Shown here piece by piece: positions 2,431 through 22,327 of a DNA stretch of 64,000 bases (positions are counted from its first letter, which is position 1; the number at the start of each line of letters is the position of its first letter). The DNA lies in contig JANXUA010000101.1 of assembly GCA_025352085.1 (NCBI GenBank), forward strand, positions 1 to 64,000, in the 5' to 3' direction. The stretch comes from Caulobacteraceae bacterium. GTDB lineage: Bacteria; Pseudomonadota; Alphaproteobacteria; Caulobacterales; Caulobacteraceae. A program made the position numbers and the translations under genes. Below the pieces are notes generated by a model. The model had not been told where the DNA came from and did not search any database. It was given only the letters and a program-made list of their open reading frames with translations.

Positions 2431-3810
2431 ATGCCCATTGGAGTGACACCGAACGCACCCCCCAGCCCTCCCACCGGCCTCGCCCACACCCTGCAGTCGC
2501 GCCACGTGGCGATGATTTCGTTCGGCGGGATCATCGGCGCGGGCCTGTTTGTCGGCGCCAGCGGCGCGATCCACAAGGGCGGGCCAGGGGTGTTTCTGGT
2601 CTACGGCGTCTGCGGCGCCCTGGTGTTTCTGATCATGCGCATGCTGGGCGAGATGGCCGTCGCCAATCCCGGCAAGGGCTCGTTCGCCGAATACGCCGCC
2701 CTGGCGCTGGGGCCGTGGGCCGGCTTCACGACCCGCTGGCTTTATTGGTATTTCTGGGTGTTCACCGTCGGCGCGGAGACGGTGGCGGGCGCCAAGCTCT
2801 TGCACGAGATCGGTCTGCCCGGTCCGGTGTGGGGGATCGGCCTGGCGCTGGTGGCTCTGATGACCTCGACCAACCTCCTATCGGTGCGCGCCTACGGCGA
2901 GCTGGAGTTCTGGTTTTCCCTGCTCAAGGTCACGGCCATCGGCGTCTTCATCGCCATCGGCGTCGCCTTCATCGCCGTCTTCGCGCCGGGGCCGCATCAC
3001 GCCTTGCAGACCTTCGCCGGCCATGGCGGCGTCTTCCCCATGGGTTTCGCCGGCCTCACCGCCGCCGTTCCGGTGGTGATCTTTTCGATGATGGGCAGCG
3101 AGGTGGCGACCATCGCCGCGGCCGAATCGGCCGATCCCGCCGCCAATGTCGCCAAGGCCGCCCGCACCGTCGCCCTGCGCATACTGGTCTTTTACGTCGC
3201 CGCCATGCTGGTCATCACCGCCATCATCCCGTGGGATTCCGTCGTCGTCGGCCTCTCGCCGTTCAAGGCGGTGCTGGACGTGATCGGTATTCCCGGCAGC
3301 GCCAAGGTGATGAGCGTGATCATCATCACCGCCGTGCTCTCCTGCCTCAATTCCGGCCTCTACATCACCTCGCGCATGCTGTTCGAGCTGGCCCGCAACG
3401 GCGATGCGCCGCGCATTCTGGGCACGGTCGCCGGCAACCGCGTGCCGGTGTTCGGCACCATCATCGGCTGCGTCGCCGGCGCCGTCGCCGCTCTGGCGCA
3501 GATCTTCCTGCGCGACGACGTCTTCACCCTCCTGGCCAGCACCTCGGGCGACATCATCCTGTTCATCTATCTGATCATCGCCCTCGCCCAGATCCGCGCG
3601 CGCCGGCGGCTGGAGGCCGATGGCGTTCAGCTAAAGTTGAAGATGTGGCTGTTCCCGGCGCTGAGCTATGGCGTGATCGGCGGCATCCTCGCGGTTCTGG
3701 CCCTGCTGGCCTTCATGCCCGATCAGCAAATGACGCTGGGTTTAAGCGCGCTAACGGTGGCGGCGGTGTTTGGAGCGTTAGCGATGAAAAGGCGGGCGGC
3801 GCGGGCCTAG
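2431..3810 (+). CDS. Amino acid permease (APC superfamily, AAT/GabP-like)
   Basis: Inner-membrane amino acid transporter of 459 aa with about 12 hydrophobic segments. The N-terminal family signature is clear: QSRHVAMISFGGIIGAGLFV in TM1, then GEMAVANPGKGSFAEYA. This matches the AAT family (GabP, ProY, CycA and relatives), which imports amino acids by proton symport; the substrate cannot be assigned. The ATG at 2431 is preceded by GGGGAG at good spacing, and the open frame upstream of it has no family similarity. The stop codon shares a CTAG tetranucleotide with the stop of the convergent vapC gene (3807-3810). Confidence 0.9.
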   Translation: MPIGVTPNAPPSPPTGLAHTLQSRHVAMISFGGIIGAGLFVGASGAIHKGGPGVFLVYGVCGALVFLIMRMLGEMAVANPGKGSFAEYAALALGPWAGFTTRWLYWYFWVFTVGAETVAGAKLLHEIGLPGPVWGIGLALVALMTSTNLLSVRAYGELEFWFSLLKVTAIGVFIAIGVAFIAVFAPGPHHALQTFAGHGGVFPMGFAGLTAAVPVVIFSMMGSEVATIAAAESADPAANVAKAARTVALRILVFYVAAMLVITAIIPWDSVVVGLSPFKAVLDVIGIPGSAKVMSVIIITAVLSCLNSGLYITSRMLFELARNGDAPRILGTVAGNRVPVFGTIIGCVAGAVAALAQIFLRDDVFTLLASTSGDIILFIYLIIALAQIRARRRLEADGVQLKLKMWLFPALSYGVIGGILAVLALLAFMPDQQMTLGLSALTVAAVFGALAMKRRAARA

Positions 3811-4187
3811 GTTTGGTCTTCGGCGGCGATCCGCGCGAGTTTGCGATCAAGGGTGATGAGCTCCACGCCGCGGAGCCTGGCGAGCCACAAATAACTCGCG
3901 TCATAGCCGCTCAATCCCGTTTCGGCGGCCGTCGCCACGACGCCATCGTAGTCGATGGCGTGCTCTTCAATCCCAAGCTCATTCCGCCGCGCGAAATTGG
4001 CGACAATCAGATCGCGCATGTCTGGGTTGCGCCTGCACTTCACAACGCAAACGTTAGCGAGCTCAAAGCCAAACAGAGTTGGGGCGATCAGCGTATGGCC
4101 GTCGATGCGTTCCAAGACCGCGACGCCTTCCGGCTCACCGAACAAAAAGGCCGCGATCGCGGAGGCGTCAACGACCTTAACGACCAT
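3807..4187 (-). CDS. vapC: VapC-family PIN-domain ribonuclease toxin
   Basis: A 126 aa PIN-domain protein and the toxin of a type II toxin-antitoxin pair. VapC toxins are Mg-dependent endoribonucleases that cut tRNA or rRNA. The acidic residues expected for metal binding are visible: Asp7 in VVDASA, Glu42 in FGFELAN, Asp in GYDASYLWLA and Asp in LITLDRKLA. The ATG at 4187 overlaps the antitoxin reading frame by 11 bp, implying translational coupling; an upstream in-frame start at 4211 is less likely. The gene ends within the CTAG that also holds the permease stop. Confidence 0.87.
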   Translation of the reverse strand: MVVKVVDASAIAAFLFGEPEGVAVLERIDGHTLIAPTLFGFELANVCVVKCRRNPDMRDLIVANFARRNELGIEEHAIDYDGVVATAAETGLSGYDASYLWLARLRGVELITLDRKLARIAAEDQT

Positions 4188-4407
4188 CGCGGTCGGCGCG
4201 GATGATTTCAACCGAGTCGGCGGCCGTTCTCAGCCCCGTCGCCCGGATTTCGGCGAAGAAGCCCGCCAGATTGCCACCGGATTCTTCGCGCGCTGCTGTT
4301 TCCACGATCTGCAGCAGTTCGCCTTGCAGCGACCGATGCCGCCGGGCCGCGCGCTCACGCAACCGCTGCACCACGGGTTCGGGGACATTCTTGATCGAGA
4401 GGTTCAT
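4177..4407 (-). CDS. vapB: FitA/VapB-like ribbon-helix-helix antitoxin
   Basis: A 76 aa antitoxin placed first in the pair. The N-terminus (MNLSIKNVPEPVVQRLRERA) is a typical FitA/Arc-like ribbon-helix-helix DNA-binding domain. The C-terminal part (about residues 45-76) should wrap the VapC active site. In such systems the antitoxin-toxin complex represses its own promoter, expected in the 75 bp upstream of 4407; I did not find a clear operator there. The order antitoxin-toxin and the 11 bp overlap are standard. Confidence 0.87.
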   Translation of the reverse strand: MNLSIKNVPEPVVQRLRERAARRHRSLQGELLQIVETAAREESGGNLAGFFAEIRATGLRTAADSVEIIRADRDGR

Positions 4408-4482
4408 GGGCGTGGTTCCATTTTGGCGCCAATATCACTCCACTATCATGATTGAGCGCGAGTGGGAATGCGGACGGTCCGC

Positions 4483-4804
4483 CTATTCGAACGCCTTCCA
4501 CGGTTCGCCGCCGCGTTTGCGGCCTTCGCGATAGATGCGTGGGCCGACCCAGAACAGCACTAAACCGACGTCAGTGGGAAGACCGCCGACGATCAGGGCA
4601 ATGACGATCATGCCTGTACAACTCGCCAGGACCCCGAGGTTGGAAGGCCGTGATGACCGACCATCCTTCGACCCAGAGCGTGCATGCGCCGCACAGGAAG
4701 GCGACTACCCCGCCGACAGCCATGAGCATACCGCCGACCAAGCGCTTTTCGGCGAGGCGTTTTGCGGGGACTGGATCGTCGGTCGGCGGGGTTTGGCCGC
4801 TCAT
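4483..4804 (-). pseudogene. Third tandem small membrane protein, frameshifted
   Basis: The gene starts at ATG 4804 (SGQTPPTDDPVPAKR...), 11 bp after the preceding gene, and encodes a first membrane segment with FLCGACTLW. The frame is lost near 4635-4650 around FQ. The next frame continues with MIVIALIVGGLPTDVG, then FWVGPRIYREGRKRGGE, and ends with TAG at 4485-4483. That second half matches the second membrane segment of the two upstream paralogues (IVGGLPTLTG and VIGGVPTAVG). The whole span is 322 nt, one more than a multiple of three, so a single inserted base explains it. It may be a true mutation or a sequencing error. Restored length is about 106 aa. Confidence 0.75.
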
Positions 4805-4815
4805 TGTCGCCCGAC

Positions 4816-5421
4816 CTATTCCCGCCCGCCGAAGCGGTAAAGCCAAAGCGCGAGGGCGAAGCCGACGCCTTCGAACAGCATGGCCGCGTCACGCAGCCAA
4901 AGTCCGAAAACGGCGACTCCGGCAAGCAGGCCGCCGCCGATGAGCTGATGCCGAAGCGCGGTTTCGCGATCAGCCGGATCGACGCGCAGAAACATCCACC
5001 GCGGGATGCCGAAGCCGGCGGCGCCAAACAGGATCTGGCCGCCGAAGTTCCACAGCGCGATGATCGCGGCGATCGCGAAAACGGGAACGGCGATGGCGAG
5101 CCGCCGCCGCCGCCTGGCGATCCACCGGGGATCGTCCTTGGCCCATTGCGGGCCGCCGCTGCGATAGAGCGTCAGGCCCGCGACAAATCCCGCGACCCCC
5201 ACCGCCGTCGGGACGCCGCCGATGACCAGGGCGATCAGGGCGATGAAATCCCCCAGCCCCTGTCCCGAACCGGTGGACTGACTGGTAAAGGCCAGGGTGC
5301 AGAGCCCGCACAGGCCCGCCACCAGACCGCTCATGGTCATGATGATCATACCCAGGAGGCGGCTTTCCCGCTGGCGTTTGGCCTCGGCGAGATTGTCGGC
5401 CGGGGGCGGCGTGCCGGTCAC
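4816..5421 (-). CDS. Membrane protein, CGxCTL paralogue with extended C-terminus
   Basis: A 201 aa protein of unknown function with about five hydrophobic segments. Its first half is a paralogue of the genes on either side: a charged N-terminus, a first membrane segment with GLCGLCTLAF, and a second with IALVIGGVPTAVGV ending at a YRSGG turn. The second half (from about residue 105) adds membrane segments not present in the neighbours, beginning with an Arg-rich loop (RRRRRLAIAVPVFAIA). It starts 5 bp after the upstream paralogue and belongs to the radical SAM operon. The Cys-x2-Cys pair inside a predicted membrane helix is unusual and is shared in form by all three paralogues. Confidence 0.7.
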   Translation of the reverse strand: MTGTPPPADNLAEAKRQRESRLLGMIIMTMSGLVAGLCGLCTLAFTSQSTGSGQGLGDFIALIALVIGGVPTAVGVAGFVAGLTLYRSGGPQWAKDDPRWIARRRRRLAIAVPVFAIAAIIALWNFGGQILFGAAGFGIPRWMFLRVDPADRETALRHQLIGGGLLAGVAVFGLWLRDAAMLFEGVGFALALWLYRFGGRE

Positions 5422-5426
5422 GTCTC

Positions 5427-5687
5427 TCAGCCCTTCTTACCACCACGGACGACCATCCACACGCCGACCCCGAAAATCGCTATGCCGGTCAAGGTCGGGA
5501 GGCCGCCGACAATCAACGGGATCGCCAAGGCCGAAATATCCATGCGCGTGCCGGGGCCCACGAATATGGCGCCCGCGTAGAGCGTGCAGAGCCCGCACAG
5601 GAGCGCGATGAGTGCGCCCACCACCATCACCAGGACGCCGAGCCATTTCAGCTGGGCGTCACCCCTGTTCGGTGGCTCCTCGCTCAT
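5427..5687 (-). CDS. Small two-helix membrane protein, CGxCTL paralogue
   Basis: An 86 aa membrane protein with two predicted transmembrane helices: WLGVLVMVVGALIALLCGLC and a second around IPLIVGGLPTLTGIAIF. It is the shortest of three tandem paralogues. Its start codon overlaps the stop of the radical SAM gene by 4 bp (ATGA), so it is probably translationally coupled to it. I do not recognise a named family. The placement suggests a membrane partner of the radical SAM or Lgt-like enzyme, but that is inference. Confidence 0.75.
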   Translation of the reverse strand: MSEEPPNRGDAQLKWLGVLVMVVGALIALLCGLCTLYAGAIFVGPGTRMDISALAIPLIVGGLPTLTGIAIFGVGVWMVVRGGKKG

Positions 5688-7129
5688 CCCCGCTTCGCCT
5701 TTCCTCGCGCCAACGTCCCGCGCCCTGCGGCGCCTTCGCGGTAAAACGTATTGAATGTGTCGAAGGGGATGATCCGGCCGTCGGGCTGGACGAAGTGCAC
5801 GCAGGAGCGTTTCACCGTCGCCAGATCGAAGTTGAAGCGGTCGAGGAATTGCATGATCACCACGCGGAAGGTGTTTTCGTATGACAATCCTTCGGGAACC
5901 ACGGCGTCGGGCAGGCAGCAGAGAACGTCGGCGAGTTTGTCGGTGGTGTCGGCCTGGGCGGTGGAGAGCGAGAGCAGGTTGAACACCCGCTCGCGCAACT
6001 CGGGATAGCCCTCGAAGGTCACCGTATTGGGCGCGGCGTCGACGAGAATATCGCGCGGTAGCAGCGCGGTGATCGGGGCGACGGTCTCGCCGTTTCGCAG
6101 GCCATAGCCGATGCAGATCTGGTCGGGATTGCAGGGCAGGGGGATGAGGTCCTCCAGCGCGAACACACCGGCCTTGGCGATCTCGCGGCGGATCTCGGTC
6201 AGCACCATGCGGTGTTCGGCCGCCTCGAAGCCCTCATTACGGCCAGCGTCCTGGATCGGCTGGAAGGTGACGCCGCGTACGCAGCGCCATGTGAGCGCAT
6301 GGCGAACGATGTCGGCGATCTCGGTATCGTTGACGCCCTTCTTCAGCGTCACCACCAGGGTGGTGGAGATATTGTTGCGCTCGAGCGCTTCAAGAGCCTG
6401 GGCGCGCACGCTGGTAAGGTCGGCGCCGCGCAGATTCATCAGGGCGTCGCGTTTGAGGGAATCGAACTGCAGATAGACCTCGAACCCCGGCATGTAGGCG
6501 GCGAGCCGTTCGGCGAATCCGGCCTCGCGGGCGATGCGCAGGCCGTTGGTGTTGATCATCAAATGGCGGATCGGGCGACGTTTGGCGGCGTCCAGAATCT
6601 CGAAGAATTGCGGATGCAGGGTCGGCTCGCCGCCGGAAATCTGCACCAGATCGGGCTCGCCCTCCGAGGCGACCACCGTATCGAGCATCGCCTCGATCTG
6701 CGCCATCGTCCGGTGGGTGTCCCGCCGCGTGGACGAGTCGGCGAAACACACCGGGCAGGAGAGGTTGCACGCCTCGTTGACTTCGATGATGGCGAGGCAG
6801 GAATGCTGTTCGTGATCGGGACACAGGCCGCAATCATACGGGCAGCCGTGCTCGGTGCGGCTCTGCGGTTTCAAGGACCGGTCGCCGGGTTTCAGCCAAT
6901 CGCGCTGGGATTTCCAATAGGCGATGTCGTCGGCGATCAGGGTCTTTTGCACGCCGTGATCGGCGCAACGCTTGAGATAGTAGACGCACCCGTCCTCGCC
7001 GATCACCTTGGCCGGAACCAGGGCGAGGCAGGTTTCACACAGGGAGGTGGTCTGGCCGAGGAAGAGATAGGGCGCGCGGCTGCGGATCGGCCCCTCGGGC
7101 ACGGTCGCGGATAAACCAGACGCATCCAT
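5684..7129 (-). CDS. Radical SAM enzyme, COG1964 / tetraether-synthase-like
   Basis: A 481 aa Cys-rich radical SAM protein. An N-terminal rubredoxin-like region has C31-x2-C34 and C55 in KRCADHG (C48 also nearby). A second cluster follows at C96, C100 and C103 (GCPYDCGLCPDHEQHSC). Then comes the radical SAM motif C121-x3-C125-x2-C128 (EACNLSCPVCFADS), SGGEPT, and a C-terminal LPCNPDQICIGYG. From memory, this layout is that of COG1964, which includes archaeal Tes (MJ0619), the enzyme that joins lipid tails by C-C bonds; other members are uncharacterised. An adjacent Lgt-like gene and downstream membrane proteins favour a lipid or membrane substrate here. The start overlaps the Lgt-like frame by 95 bp; GTG 7102 is an alternative. 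Confidence 0.85.
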   Translation of the reverse strand: MDASGLSATVPEGPIRSRAPYLFLGQTTSLCETCLALVPAKVIGEDGCVYYLKRCADHGVQKTLIADDIAYWKSQRDWLKPGDRSLKPQSRTEHGCPYDCGLCPDHEQHSCLAIIEVNEACNLSCPVCFADSSTRRDTHRTMAQIEAMLDTVVASEGEPDLVQISGGEPTLHPQFFEILDAAKRRPIRHLMINTNGLRIAREAGFAERLAAYMPGFEVYLQFDSLKRDALMNLRGADLTSVRAQALEALERNNISTTLVVTLKKGVNDTEIADIVRHALTWRCVRGVTFQPIQDAGRNEGFEAAEHRMVLTEIRREIAKAGVFALEDLIPLPCNPDQICIGYGLRNGETVAPITALLPRDILVDAAPNTVTFEGYPELRERVFNLLSLSTAQADTTDKLADVLCCLPDAVVPEGLSYENTFRVVIMQFLDRFNFDLATVKRSCVHFVQPDGRIIPFDTFNTFYREGAAGRGTLARGKAKRG

Positions 7130-7805
7130 AAACGACCAGCCCCAATGAGATCAGTTGGAAGACGTTAAACGGTCCGATCAGCTTGGGATAGGGCTTCAGA
7201 AACTCCCACAAAAACCGCTGGACGCCGTACCAGGCGACGGCGACGTAGAACCCCCGCCGCATGGCCCACGGCGCGCGGCGGGCCAGGCCGACCAGATAGA
7301 CGGCGAGGAAGGCCGCCATCGCCGCGCTCTCATACATCTGCACCGGATGGCGGCCGATCTCGTCGCCGAGATCCACCGCCCACGGCAGGTTTGTCGGGAC
7401 ACCATAGGTGCGATCGGGGAGGCCTGAAAACAGGCAACCGAACCGCCCGACAATGATGCCCACGGCGAGCGATCCGACAAACACCCCGCCGGTGGACCCC
7501 TTGATCCCGCGCGCGGCCTTGTAGATTTCCACCGCGACGATGGCGCCAGCCATGGCGCCGGCGATCGAATGCGAGAGGGTCGGCGCCGCGTCGCGCAGGG
7601 TGTTGAGCGATCCGGCCAGCCACGCCCCCACGACCGCGCCGGCGGCGAGGCTGAAGAAATAACCGGGTCCCGTCCGCACCGCCAAGGCCTGCACCGCGTC
7701 CCTCAGGCGCCAGCGATAGAGCGCGTAGCCGGTGGCGGCGCCGCACGCCCAGGCGGCGAGGTCGAACAAGGGGTGGACCGCAGGCGACGTAGGAACGTGG
7801 ATCAT
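7035..7805 (-). CDS. Lgt-like diacylglyceryl transferase paralogue
   Basis: A 256 aa polytopic membrane protein related to prolipoprotein diacylglyceryl transferase but distinct from the true Lgt encoded at 21.4-22.3 kb. It keeps an Lgt-like core: GRFGCLFSGLPDRTYG in place of RVANFINGELWGR, then LPWAVD, then HPVQMYES in place of HPSQLYEA. The Asn of the Lgt NFINGE motif is replaced by Cys, so the acceptor or donor may differ. ATG 7805 overlaps the upstream methyltransferase stop by 4 bp, and the 3' end overlaps the radical SAM frame by 95 bp. Role unknown; a glycerolipid-handling reaction is the natural guess. Confidence 0.75.
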   Translation of the reverse strand: MIHVPTSPAVHPLFDLAAWACGAATGYALYRWRLRDAVQALAVRTGPGYFFSLAAGAVVGAWLAGSLNTLRDAAPTLSHSIAGAMAGAIVAVEIYKAARGIKGSTGGVFVGSLAVGIIVGRFGCLFSGLPDRTYGVPTNLPWAVDLGDEIGRHPVQMYESAAMAAFLAVYLVGLARRAPWAMRRGFYVAVAWYGVQRFLWEFLKPYPKLIGPFNVFQLISLGLVVYGCVWFIRDRARGADPQPRALSLPRPDHLPV

Positions 7806-8617
7806 CGGCCCTGCCCGCCTTCTGACGTCAGATGGTGCAGCACGATGCCGCTCGTGGTGGCGACGTTGAGGGAATCGAAGCCGCCGGCCATGGGGATGGT
7901 CACGGTTCGGGCGCGCTTCAGGATTTCGGGTGGCAGCCCGGGGCCTTCGGCGCCCAGCAGAACCGCGGCGCGGGCGGGCGGCGTCAGATCGGCCAGGCGG
8001 GTGGCGCCGTTGGGCGTTAGGGCGAGAACCTCGAAGCCGTGGCGGGTGAGAAGGTTCACGATGTCTTCGCCGGCCGCCAGACGCGCGAAGGGCACGGTCA
8101 ACGCCGCGCCCACCGAAACGCGGATCGCCTTGCGATAGAGGGGATCGCAGCAGGTCTCGTCGATCAGCACCGCGCTGGCGCGGAACGCGGCGGCGTTACG
8201 GAAGACGCCGCCGATATTGTCGTGATTGGCGATGCCGATGAGGACCAGAACGACGGCGCGCGGCGGCGCCGCGGCCAGCAGGGTTACGGCCGTCGACGCG
8301 GCGCCCCGCTCGCCGAACGCGAGGATGCCGCGATGGATCGGGAACCCGGCGACCGCGTCCATCACCGCCTGCCCCGCGACATAGACCGGAACCTCGGGCG
8401 CGAAGGCGGCGATCATGGGCGCGAGGCGCTCGGCGCGTTTCTCGGCGATCAGGAGGGCGCGGGTCTTATAGAGCCGGCTGCGCGCGAGCACCCGCAGCAC
8501 CACCTCGCCCTCGGCGATGAAGCCGTTCTCGCGCCCGACGACGTCCCGCTCGCGCACGTCGCGAAACAACGCGATGCGCGGGTCGCGAGGGTCGTCGATG
8601 GGGAAGAGAGTGGGCAC
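7802..8617 (-). CDS. SpoU/TrmH-family RNA 2'-O-methyltransferase
   Basis: A 271 aa RNA methyltransferase with the alpha/beta-knot SPOUT fold. The three family motifs are present: IANHDNIGGVFRNAAAF (motif 1), LLGAEGPGLPPEIL (motif 2) and IPMAGGFDSLNVATTSG (motif 3). Members methylate ribose 2'-OH in tRNA or 23S rRNA. The N-terminal part resembles the substrate-binding domain of TrmH/RlmB types, but the RNA target cannot be told. It starts 2 bp after the isomerase-like gene and ends overlapping the Lgt-like gene by 4 bp. Why an RNA modifier sits in this operon is not clear. Confidence 0.88.
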   Translation of the reverse strand: MPTLFPIDDPRDPRIALFRDVRERDVVGRENGFIAEGEVVLRVLARSRLYKTRALLIAEKRAERLAPMIAAFAPEVPVYVAGQAVMDAVAGFPIHRGILAFGERGAASTAVTLLAAAPPRAVVLVLIGIANHDNIGGVFRNAAAFRASAVLIDETCCDPLYRKAIRVSVGAALTVPFARLAAGEDIVNLLTRHGFEVLALTPNGATRLADLTPPARAAVLLGAEGPGLPPEILKRARTVTIPMAGGFDSLNVATTSGIVLHHLTSEGGQGR

Positions 8618-8619
8618 GC

Positions 8620-9234
8620 CTACGGCGTCGCGGCTTGCAACCGCAGCACCGCCGCCCGCACCAGCTCCAGCCGATCATTGCCGAAATACATGTCATCGCC
8701 GCCGACATAGATCGTCGGCGAGCCGAAGCCGCCGCGGGCAATCAACTCTTCGGTATTGGCTTTCAGCTGCTCCTTGACCGCTGGTTGCGCGATGCCGTCC
8801 ATGACCGTCTGGACGTCCACGCCGGCGCGCCGGCAGACATCCGCCGCCACCTCGTCTTGCGAAATATCCCGATCATCGCCCCAATAAACCTCGAACGCCG
8901 CGCGGGCGAAATCGACGAGCTTGCCCATCGGCTCGAGCACCAGACAGGCGCGCATGACCTTGACGCTGTTCACCGGAAACACCGAGGGCGGCATTCTGAT
9001 TTTCAAATCGGCCTGACGCGCCCAGTCCTGCAGGTCTTTGAGCATATAGCGGGCCTTCTGCGGCACGGGGGCCGCGCGGCTGGCGTAGACGGTGGGATTG
9101 ACCGTATTGAATATGCCGCCGACCAGAATCGGCCGCCATCGAATGGGGGCGTCCAGCTCCCGCGCCAGAGGCTGCAGATTGTGGAAAGCCAGATAGGTCC
9201 ACGGGCTGGAGCAGTCGAAGAAAACTTCAATCAT
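8620..9234 (-). CDS. 2-hydroxychromene-2-carboxylate isomerase / DsbA-family protein
   Basis: A 204 aa protein of the DsbA-fold kappa-GST/HCCA isomerase family. The N-terminus EVFFDCSSPWTYLAF matches the family pattern in which Ser, not Cys, is the glutathione-site residue; GGFGSPTIYVGGDDMYFGND is the usual C-terminal signature. Characterised members isomerise hydroxychromene carboxylate in naphthalene breakdown with glutathione, but many relatives have unknown substrates and no aromatic pathway is nearby. ATG 9234 has GGGAGG about 7 bases upstream. It is the first gene of the seven-gene minus-strand operon and is divergent from rpmB. Confidence 0.85.
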   Translation of the reverse strand: MIEVFFDCSSPWTYLAFHNLQPLARELDAPIRWRPILVGGIFNTVNPTVYASRAAPVPQKARYMLKDLQDWARQADLKIRMPPSVFPVNSVKVMRACLVLEPMGKLVDFARAAFEVYWGDDRDISQDEVAADVCRRAGVDVQTVMDGIAQPAVKEQLKANTEELIARGGFGSPTIYVGGDDMYFGNDRLELVRAAVLRLQAATP

Positions 9235-20380: not shown

Positions 20381-21414
20381 GGCTCAAACCCCGGCGCCGA
20401 CAGGCCCGGCGCGTGCAGGCAGACGACCTTGAACAGATCGCCCATTTTATCGGCGGCGATCAGGCGCTCTAGCTGCCGGCCGATCTGGTCGGACTTGTCG
20501 GGCCGCGCGCGGGCCAGGGCGGCGGCGCGGGCTTTTATGCCCAGACGTTGCAGGAAATCGCCCTGTTTCAAGATTGCGGTGGCTTCAAGACCGGCCGATT
20601 CAGCGGCGGCGGCCAAGGTTGGAAAATCCACGTGCGCGGTGAGATCGGCGGCGCCCGGATGATGGAGCGGATGCTCGTTGCGGTGGCCGCGCAGGGCCTG
20701 CAGGGTGTCGCCGTAGCCGGGCGTGTCGCGCCCATAGTCGATGAACAGCGCCGCGCCCCGGGCCGCGCCGATCAAACCGGCGACCGTGCGGGCCGTCTCG
20801 GCCAGGGCGACGCAGTGCTCGTGGATCATCGGCCCTGCCTCGTCTTCGTAAGCGGGAACGAAGGCCAAATCACCCTTCGCATCCACCCCCACCCGCCGCT
20901 CGGCCCACCAACCTTCAACGAAGATCATCTGCGTAATCGGCAGGCAGTCGAGGAATTCGTTGGCGAGGATGATCATCGGCGCGTCGGCCGGGAGGTCGGC
21001 AAGGCTCGCCGCCCACCGCACGCAATAACCCTCAAGCGCGGCGCCCTGGCGCGTGCGCAGGGGTGCGCTGGTCTCCACGAGCCAAATCTCGCAAGCCGCC
21101 AGAAACGCCGGCGCGGCCTTCGCCGCGCGCAGGACATCGCGCATCATGGTTCCGTCGCCGGGGCCGAGCTCCACTAGGCGCGCGCGTGGCGGCGCGCCGA
21201 GGCGCTCCCATACCTCCGCCGCCCACAGACCCAGGAGTTCGCCGAACATCTGCGAGATCAAGGGGGCGGTGACGAAATCTCCCGTCTCGCCCAGTCGCGG
21301 CGCCGTGGCGTAATAACCATCGTCGGGGTCGTGCAGGCACAAGGTCATGTAGTGGGCCACCGAGATCGGCCCGCTCAGGGCGATCGCGGCGGTCAGGCGG
21401 TCACGCAGGCTCAT
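20377..21414 (-). CDS. MidA/NDUFAF7-family SAM-dependent methyltransferase
   Basis: A 345 aa class I methyltransferase of COG1565. The SAM-binding loop is LVELGPGDGTMMRDVL; ILANEFLDCLPITQ and ALFIDYGRDTPGYGDTLQA are family signatures. The mitochondrial relative NDUFAF7 dimethylates an Arg in the NDUFS2 subunit of complex I, so a role in complex I assembly is plausible but not shown in bacteria as far as I know. It overlaps lgt by 14 bp upstream and pgeF by 4 bp downstream. Confidence 0.9.
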   Translation of the reverse strand: MSLRDRLTAAIALSGPISVAHYMTLCLHDPDDGYYATAPRLGETGDFVTAPLISQMFGELLGLWAAEVWERLGAPPRARLVELGPGDGTMMRDVLRAAKAAPAFLAACEIWLVETSAPLRTRQGAALEGYCVRWAASLADLPADAPMIILANEFLDCLPITQMIFVEGWWAERRVGVDAKGDLAFVPAYEDEAGPMIHEHCVALAETARTVAGLIGAARGAALFIDYGRDTPGYGDTLQALRGHRNEHPLHHPGAADLTAHVDFPTLAAAAESAGLEATAILKQGDFLQRLGIKARAAALARARPDKSDQIGRQLERLIAADKMGDLFKVVCLHAPGLSAPGFEP

Positions 21415-22327
21415 CGGCGGGACGGGCCGGGGACGCGCGCAGAGCCCGCCAGATCAAGGCCGCACCGACAATCACCATCGGGGCCGACAGCATCATGCCC
21501 ATGGTCAGGCCCAGCGGCAGGTGCTGAAAGCCTTCGTCCGGCATGCGGACATTCTCCAGCGCGATGCGCGAGAGGCCATAAACAAGAACAAAAAGGCCGG
21601 ATGTCGCCCCGGACTTTTGCAACCAGCCGGCCCGGTGCGTCGCCCAGCGCAGGATGAAGAACATAACCACGCCTTCCAGCCCAGCCTCATACAGTTGGCT
21701 GGGGTGGCGGGGCTCTTCTCCCGCGACGCAGACCCCGTTGGCGTAGGTGGCGATATTGGGGCTGCAGAACTTGATCGCCCAGGGCACGTGGGTCACCCGC
21801 CCCCAAAGCTCGCCGTTGATGAAGTTGGCGACCCGGACCAGCGCTATGCCGATGGGCGCGCACGGGGCCACCATGTCGCTCAGGCGCAGAAGATCGATCT
21901 TCTGCGCGCGGGCGAACAGCACAATGGCGACGGTCACGCCCAGAAATCCACCGTGGAAACTCATTCCGCCGTGCCACAGGCGAAACACCTCGAACGGGTC
22001 GGCGGCGAGAGCCTCGCGCGCCTTGGCCAGAGGCAGCATGTAAAACAAGATATAGCCGATCCGTCCGCCGAGGATGATTCCGAGGGTCAGCCACAGGATC
22101 AGATCGTCGATCTGCAAGGCACTCGCCGGCGGGCCGCGCTCGCCCCACAGCCGGGCGTTGCGGATCAGTCCCAGGGCGTAGCGCCATCCCAAGACAATGC
22201 CGGTGATATAGCCCAGCGCATACCAGCGCAGCGCGAACGGCCCCAGCGTCAACCGACCCACATGCACCGGCGGGAGGGTGAAGATCTCGGGCCGGATATT
22301 CGGAAAGGGCAGGGCCATCGGCGCCAT
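21401..22327 (-). CDS. lgt: Prolipoprotein diacylglyceryl transferase
   Basis: A 308 aa inner-membrane enzyme that adds diacylglycerol from phosphatidylglycerol to the lipobox Cys of prolipoproteins. All main motifs are present: WHGGMSFHGGFLG, RVANFINGELWGRVT and RHPSQLYEAGLEG, with about seven membrane segments. It is the true housekeeping Lgt and a useful yardstick for the divergent paralogue at 7.0-7.8 kb. ATG 22318 is an alternative start three codons in. Confidence 0.96.
   Translation of the reverse strand: MAPMALPFPNIRPEIFTLPPVHVGRLTLGPFALRWYALGYITGIVLGWRYALGLIRNARLWGERGPPASALQIDDLILWLTLGIILGGRIGYILFYMLPLAKAREALAADPFEVFRLWHGGMSFHGGFLGVTVAIVLFARAQKIDLLRLSDMVAPCAPIGIALVRVANFINGELWGRVTHVPWAIKFCSPNIATYANGVCVAGEEPRHPSQLYEAGLEGVVMFFILRWATHRAGWLQKSGATSGLFVLVYGLSRIALENVRMPDEGFQHLPLGLTMGMMLSAPMVIVGAALIWRALRASPARPADEPA

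Follow-up and report, generated by a model that had tools for sequence, protein, structure and literature searches.

A conserved module of an Lgt paralogue, a COG1964 radical SAM enzyme and a small cysteine-bearing membrane protein in Alphaproteobacteria, Planctomycetes and Acidobacteria

Introduction

Two characterised enzymes, the archaeal tetraether synthase Tes (GDGT-MAS; MJ0619, PDB entries 7TOL and 7TOM) and Escherichia coli Lgt (PF01790; PDB entries 5AZB and 5AZC), have relatives encoded side by side in the DNA studied here, a 64,000-nucleotide stretch (positions 1 to 64,000 of contig JANXUA010000101.1, assembly GCA_025352085.1; hereafter, the window) from a Caulobacteraceae bacterium. 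The relatives are a COG1964 radical S-adenosylmethionine (SAM) enzyme and an Lgt paralogue, and a gene for a small membrane protein follows them. Tes has a rubredoxin site, C9X2C12X20C33X2H36, an N-terminal cluster liganded by C73, C77, C80 and a His, and a C-terminal cluster with the labile ligand M439, at which a lipid-sulfur intermediate forms (PMC9433317). In E. coli Lgt, residues R143 and R239 activate the diacylglyceryl group, and the HGGL motif was proposed to bind the acceptor peptide (PMC4728403); six residues (Y26, H103, R143, N146, G154 and R239) are absolutely required (PMC13251419).

Counts of bacterial Tes homologues, whose function is untested, have relied on permissive BLAST thresholds (PMC8941075, PMC11868695). 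Mss, the membrane-spanning lipid synthase, is a bacterial enzyme that couples lipid tails (PMC13274423); it is likened to the present enzyme by description only. Our literature search found no paper describing a module composed of an Lgt-like protein, a radical SAM enzyme and a small membrane protein.

Results

Conservation of the module

The neighbours of the radical SAM gene were all inspected at 80 loci (L numbers below denote loci) taken from named genomes of Caulobacterales, Sphingomonadales, other Alphaproteobacteria, Planctomycetes and Acidobacteria. Only two neighbour families recurred: an Lgt-like gene immediately upstream and small membrane genes immediately downstream. The Lgt paralogue adjoined the radical SAM gene at 79 loci, and the remaining one was cut off on that side. 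The initial annotation had treated seven genes of the window as a unit and had named a neighbourhood survey as the test that could refute this. The Lgt-like and membrane genes passed the survey. The genes for a SpoU methyltransferase and a DsbA-like protein, included in the same unit, did not recur beside the radical SAM gene at the 80 loci, except for one 31% SpoU match located 2 kb away, and both were rejected as functional partners, being specific to the neighbourhood in the window's genome. DNA similarity with the five nearest loci was confined essentially to the lgt-radical SAM part (about 5709-7809 of the window). We conclude that the "seven-gene operon" reduces to a three-part module: the Lgt paralogue, the COG1964 radical SAM enzyme and a small Cys-bearing membrane protein.

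In profile searches, the Lgt paralogue was separated from ordinary Lgt by a score gap (170-350 bits versus 87 bits or less). Among 289 Alphaproteobacteria, the paralogue and the full-length radical SAM enzyme were found in the same three genomes (3/3); among 99 Acidobacteria, both were present in eight genomes, which were all of the genomes positive for the radical SAM enzyme (8/8). Sixteen of 149 Planctomycetes were positive for the enzyme; 11 of these were above the strict Lgt-like threshold, and reading of the loci in the other five revealed adjoining, more divergent Lgt-like genes in three, for a total of at least 14/16. None of the surveyed genomes contained the Lgt paralogue without the radical SAM enzyme, apart from acidobacterial genome G309. 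G309 was rejected as a true Lgt-only genome, since a contig edge comes directly after the gene. Fisher p values for the pairing, which ignore kinship, were 2.5e-7 for Alphaproteobacteria, 5.3e-11 for Acidobacteria and 3.2e-13 for Planctomycetes. Thus, the pairing of the two genes is far beyond chance. The distribution is patchy: within the window's own order, the radical SAM enzyme is carried by 8 of 150 genomes. Carriers of the module that are in culture include Sphingomonas mali, Phenylobacterium kunshanense and Caulobacter sp. Root343.

Divergent loci keep the set in an altered order, radical SAM-membrane-membrane-Lgt in L169 and radical SAM-Lgt in L221, L224, L225 and L226. The L169 locus (4438-7966), from a 1.5-Mb alphaproteobacterium, encodes a 28%-identical radical SAM enzyme, two small Cys-bearing membrane proteins, an Lgt-like protein and an ICMT-family methyltransferase, the latter a possible fourth part of the module. 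Three loci from entries titled Planctomycetaceae, Candidatus Kuenenia stuttgartiensis and Planctomyces (L091, L092 and L093) contained sphingomonad-type modules with 66-68% identity to the window, and L091 and L093 also had the membrane gene with the SGLC motif; these entries are probably mis-binned or mislabelled.

The radical SAM enzyme compared with Tes and TrsS

The window radical SAM enzyme is 81-86% identical to its nearest Caulobacteraceae counterparts. Its best match in the PDB is archaeal Tes (7tol, phmmer E 1.3e-59), and a Foldseek comparison of the predicted model with Tes gave an E value of 2e-29 and a TM score of 0.68, so the kinship with Tes proposed by the initial annotation is borne out. 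The domain order is also that of Tes. The Tes-like Cys layout, claimed at the same time, holds at three metal sites, all spaced exactly as in Tes: a rubredoxin CX2CX20CX2H site (C31, C34, C55 and H58), an N-terminal CX3CX2C motif with a nearby His (C96, C100 and C103) and the radical SAM CX3CX2C motif (C121, C125 and C128), the listed ligands being invariant. It does not extend to the C-terminal ligands. In our alignment, C338, C455 and C470, along with M439, are kept in archaeal and bacterial Tes, and this conservation suggests that the three Cys are the ligands of the Tes C-terminal cluster. The corresponding positions in the window clade are variable, Ser/Thr/Ala and Asp, respectively (Q337, S442 and D457 in the window enzyme), with no Cys conserved at any of them, and the M439 position is variable. 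Four other Cys, C333, C404, C405 and C443, are invariant in the window clade (alignment A1), with a single C333 exception in the wider set (L159); D457 is invariant as well. An insertion of about 22 residues specific to Tes is missing from the clade.

The further proposal that the enzyme is a tetraether synthase was not supported. The window enzyme scored 273.5 bits with the Tes NCBIfam model (NF045702), below the cut-off of 450. In a phylogenetic tree, MJ0619 and bacterial Tes formed one clade (100/100) and the window clade was separate from it (100/99); the position of long-branched L169 was uncertain. True bacterial Tes exist; they have 41-44% identity to MJ0619 and score above the NCBIfam cut-off, acidobacterial L166 and L167 reaching 567-570 bits. 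Judged from alignment and tree, the window enzyme is not a Tes; three of the four metal sites are common to both, and the chemically decisive one appears to have been rebuilt. As the Cys and Met positions of the Tes C-terminal cluster are lost or replaced, tail-to-tail C-C joining is not readable from the sequence. Residues 364-415 and 433-481 of the AlphaFold model have a predicted local distance difference test (pLDDT) score under 50; the model is therefore uninformative on the new cluster.

These data bear on the idea that the module is a membrane-spanning-lipid synthase, in which the radical SAM enzyme would act like Tes and link a pair of phospholipid tails, the Lgt paralogue would supply or remodel the glycerolipid, and the small protein would be a membrane anchor. 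Tes-like joining was put forward for bacterial homologues generally by Zeng et al. (PMC8941075), and the closest solved structure and the identical spacing of the three metal sites agree with it. Against it are the altered C-terminal positions, the absence of the Tes insertion, the separate clade and the existence of true bacterial Tes, and the coupling to Lgt and small membrane genes is a difference from Tes. Nor are membrane-spanning lipids known to us from either Caulobacter or Sphingomonas. Such a function is, in our view, quite improbable.

With the NCBIfam model of the radical SAM (seleno)protein TrsS (NF045646), the window enzyme gave a full-length match of 305.8 bits, its best NCBIfam score, though below the cut-off of 490. 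TrsS and the window enzyme are of similar length, and both lack the Tes insertion. The module could accordingly be assigned to the TrsS branch, with a non-lipid, methyltransferase-linked and possibly metalloid- or cofactor-related chemistry and an Lgt paralogue that works on another substrate. In line with this are COG1964 paralogues 37% identical to the window enzyme (L161 and L162), which adjoin genes for a SAM methyltransferase (SCCAQFYESD motif) and a pyridine-nucleotide disulfide oxidoreductase rather than Lgt. However, TrsS-like proteins keep Cys at the Tes C338, C455 and C470 positions and adjoin methyltransferases, whereas the window clade lacks these Cys and adjoins Lgt; no methyltransferase family recurred beside the clade among the inspected loci, and the membrane partners are constant. 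We consider this assignment very unlikely.

The L161 and L162 paralogues occur in Acidobacteria genomes that also bear the Lgt-linked radical SAM enzyme, and resemble a TrsS/TrsM-type pair below the curated cut-off. At two other loci from Acidobacteria-sample genomes (L165, 1410-11570; L164, 6597-9046), other COG1964 enzymes are encoded beside a FabA-type dehydratase and an ICMT-type methyltransferase. L165 has two COG1964 enzymes in tandem as well as genes for a ketoacyl synthase, an SDR and a SPASM-type radical SAM protein. The two clusters look like an undescribed fatty-acid-derived pathway.

The Lgt paralogue

The window paralogue scored 66.8 bits with the Pfam LGT model (cut-off 24.9) and 18.3 bits with the lgt equivalog model TIGR00544, missing the cut-off of 118.9. 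The paralogue profile (A2) matched E. coli Lgt (5azb) with an E value of 3.5e-12. A genuine lgt is present elsewhere in the window (21401-22327); it scored 226.6 bits versus 65.6 for the paralogue. The equivalents of E. coli R143 and R239 (R121 and R197) were invariant in 26 of 26 paralogues, and those of G154, Y235 and the RHPxQxYE motif are retained. In contrast to E. coli Lgt, Y26 is replaced by H11 and N146 by C124, the HGGL motif and H103 are lost, and the E151 region is replaced by an insertion carrying an invariant Asp. Three of the six absolutely required residues, R143, G154 and R239, are thus kept and the other three are not. The donor side of the paralogue looks preserved and the acceptor side altered. 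These losses lower the probability of diacylglyceryl transfer, which may still take place, as N146C and residues other than His at position 103 occur in some Lgts. A Leptospira Lgt with N146C restored cell morphology and only poorly restored viability, and the second Lgt homologue of Mycobacterium smegmatis, MSMEG_5408, which has in common with the window paralogue both the Y26H and the N146C change, is presumed to be of low activity (PMC13251419).

The small membrane protein

The genes downstream of the radical SAM gene were read in a wider set of 107 loci, a few of which are one place fetched twice. At 91 of these, the next reading frame encodes a small transmembrane protein and opens at the radical SAM stop codon or shortly past it, nearly always within a few bases; in one case (L225) it is the Lgt-like gene itself, which leaves 90 of 107, all of them with a Cys in a helix context. 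At L159, the small membrane protein gene lies between the two enzyme genes. In Alphaproteobacteria, a profile detected a two-helix protein of 70-100 residues directly downstream in 71 loci, with the Cys and a Gly at -2 present in 101 of 101 aligned sites. The profile misses the Planctomycetes and Acidobacteria proteins, and there is no sequence match between the lineages. An earlier view that the small protein is confined to Caulobacterales and Sphingomonadales was overturned when directly downstream open reading frames in other lineages were read.

In nearly all small proteins, the Cys is located about 15-24 residues past the final basic residue in a hydrophobic helix, which is the last helix in lineages other than the Alphaproteobacteria. 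The Cys motif is SGLC in Alphaproteobacteria, NAAC in many Planctomycetes and in acidobacterial L158, IPAC or YPVC in another alphaproteobacterial family (L235, L236) and AGTC or FGTC in L169. Given the preceding basic residues, the positive-inside rule assigns the Cys to the outer half of the membrane, on the side of the Lgt active site. This arrangement resembles a lipoprotein signal; a lipobox, [LVI][ASTVI][GAS]C, with an N-terminal signal peptide was not found. Tandem copies are present in the window (three), L111 and L236. The ratio of nonsynonymous to synonymous substitution rates (dN/dS) was 0.09-0.32 in six pairs, and we conclude that the small protein is under selection.

An automatic Cys-pattern test was positive for 58 of 91 downstream proteins, although most of the negatives visibly contain GLC, which means that the test was too strict; 42 of 310 control reading frames more than 2.5 kb away were positive. 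Since any Cys at all is common in the control (267/310), the third component is defined by direct inspection and column conservation, not by enrichment.

Layout of the window locus

The window is part of a 72-kb contig in a 3.0-Mb genome. Transcription of the locus proceeds from the DsbA-fold gene through the SpoU, Lgt-like and radical SAM genes to three membrane genes, M1, M2 and M3 (Table 1).

Table 1. Genes of the window locus in transcription order
Gene	Position	Strand	Remarks
DsbA-fold (HCCA isomerase-like) protein	8620-9234	-	PF01323 136 bits; upstream neighbour outside conserved module
SpoU-family RNA methyltransferase	7802-8617	-	PF00588 113 bits; upstream neighbour outside conserved module
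Lgt paralogue, 256 residues, core component 1	7035-7805	-	PF01790 66.8 bits
COG1964 radical SAM enzyme, 481 residues (ATG 7129; GTG 7102 possible), core component 2	5684-7129	-	TrsS/Tes NCBIfam matches below cut-off
M1, 86-residue two-helix membrane protein with GLC motif, core component 3	5427-5687	-	ATGA overlap with radical SAM gene
M2, 201-residue M1 paralogue with extra C-terminal two-helix part	4816-5421	-	M1-family profile E 8e-27
M3, third M1 paralogue, frameshifted	about 4483-4804	-	Cys helix in frame 0, second helix in frame +1

The order and strand of the seven tightly packed genes are as previously annotated. SpoU/Lgt and radical SAM/M1 overlap by ATGA, and DsbA/SpoU and M1/M2 are separated by gaps of a few bases. 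The Lgt-like and radical SAM reading frames share about 65-95 bp (window 7035-7129), not 4 bp as had been stated. The upstream radical SAM start is kept among Caulobacteraceae, and the overlap is conserved there; therefore, this stretch of DNA codes in two frames. M1, M2 and M3 are related, as a reading of three tandem paralogues had it (M2 and M3 have 49% identity over 43 residues), but M3 is frameshifted: with its Cys-bearing helix and second helix in different frames, it would be a pseudogene or a sequencing or assembly error. A PIN-domain protein (PF01850) is encoded just downstream of the module (3807-4407), and a small reading frame ahead of it resembles, by eye, a FitA/Phd-type antitoxin.

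Discussion

The module appears to be a system, so far undescribed, for modifying membrane lipids or proteins; its substrate is likely in the membrane. We tentatively favour a three-component envelope-modification module that would place a glyceryl-lipid on the Cys of the small membrane protein. The COG1964 enzyme, cytoplasmic and membrane-associated, would use SAM and a C-terminal Fe-S cluster with ligation unlike that of Tes to activate a C-H bond of a membrane glycerolipid; the Lgt paralogue would then move the glyceryl-lipid part, native or modified, onto the small protein encoded alongside, at the invariant Cys that lies in the outer half of one of its helices. The sequence data show a conserved and translationally coupled module, the residue changes in both enzymes, and a small protein under selection whose Cys is kept at a set place relative to basic residues; from these we infer a lipid substrate, the sequence of the two reactions, S-linkage of a lipid to the Cys and the nature of the product. 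The link to lipids comes from Tes being the nearest characterised relative and from the related radical SAM pair beside fatty-acid-type genes (FabA, ketoacyl synthase, SDR, ICMT) in L165. The linkage of the small protein, its lineage-divergent sequence, kept Cys, tandem copies and dN/dS together resemble what would be seen in a substrate.

Several observations weigh against this proposal. A Foldseek search with the predicted Lgt-like model (pLDDT 92) did not retrieve E. coli Lgt or any other Lgt, so the family assignment rests on sequence profiles. The radical SAM enzyme would be cytoplasmic and the Lgt site periplasmic, and the substrates of the two may differ. Two Planctomycetes loci (L222 and L223) have the radical SAM gene with no Lgt detected at the locus, and five Acidobacteria genomes (L106/L154, which are one locus, L108, L155, L156 and L157) have no downstream small protein. 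Most alphaproteobacterial members have Leu at -1 (GLC), unlike the [GAS]C of a lipobox. Finally, the Cys often falls within the helix and not at its terminus, and hydrophobic residues continue beyond it; for this reason, the small protein is not a normal lipoprotein.

Another explanation is that the small protein serves as a subunit, with a structural, targeting or regulatory role, in a complex of the Lgt paralogue and the radical SAM enzyme. The product would then be a free modified lipid, and the Cys would hold a cofactor or metal or take part in a disulfide. The gene position at the radical SAM stop codon fits a subunit too, some members bear CXXC or two Cys, and several Acidobacteria with intact Lgt-radical SAM pairs do without the protein. 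Tandem copies, and sequences so dissimilar between lineages that only the Cys context is common, suit a substrate better, and we consider a subunit role unlikely. If glyceryl-lipid transfer to the small protein does take place, the lipid placed on the Cys might be unusual, possibly radical-modified, and the module would constitute a second, lipobox-independent type of protein S-glycerolipidation in Alphaproteobacteria, Planctomycetes and Acidobacteria; in this full form, the proposal is doubtful.

Bacterial "Tes homologues" number in the hundreds, and their function has been an open question since 2022. The published count used MA_1486 as the query, with cut-offs of E below 1e-50 and identity above 20%. 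With MJ0619 as the query and a database of IMG size, we estimate that members of the window clade pass the published cut-off, the window protein having an E value of 1.3e-53 at 26.6% identity. Genes of the module have therefore probably been miscounted as tetraether-lipid synthases, and proteins without the Tes C-terminal cluster residues may have raised the counts of potential producers of tetraethers or branched glycerol dialkyl glycerol tetraethers in Planctomycetes, Acidobacteria and Proteobacteria. Checks of residues at the C-terminal positions would separate the window clade from true Tes. One large group of homologues is set apart from Tes by metal-site residues, phylogeny and gene partners, and it offers a concrete, testable system: a pair of enzymes and a possible protein substrate in which one residue is of interest.

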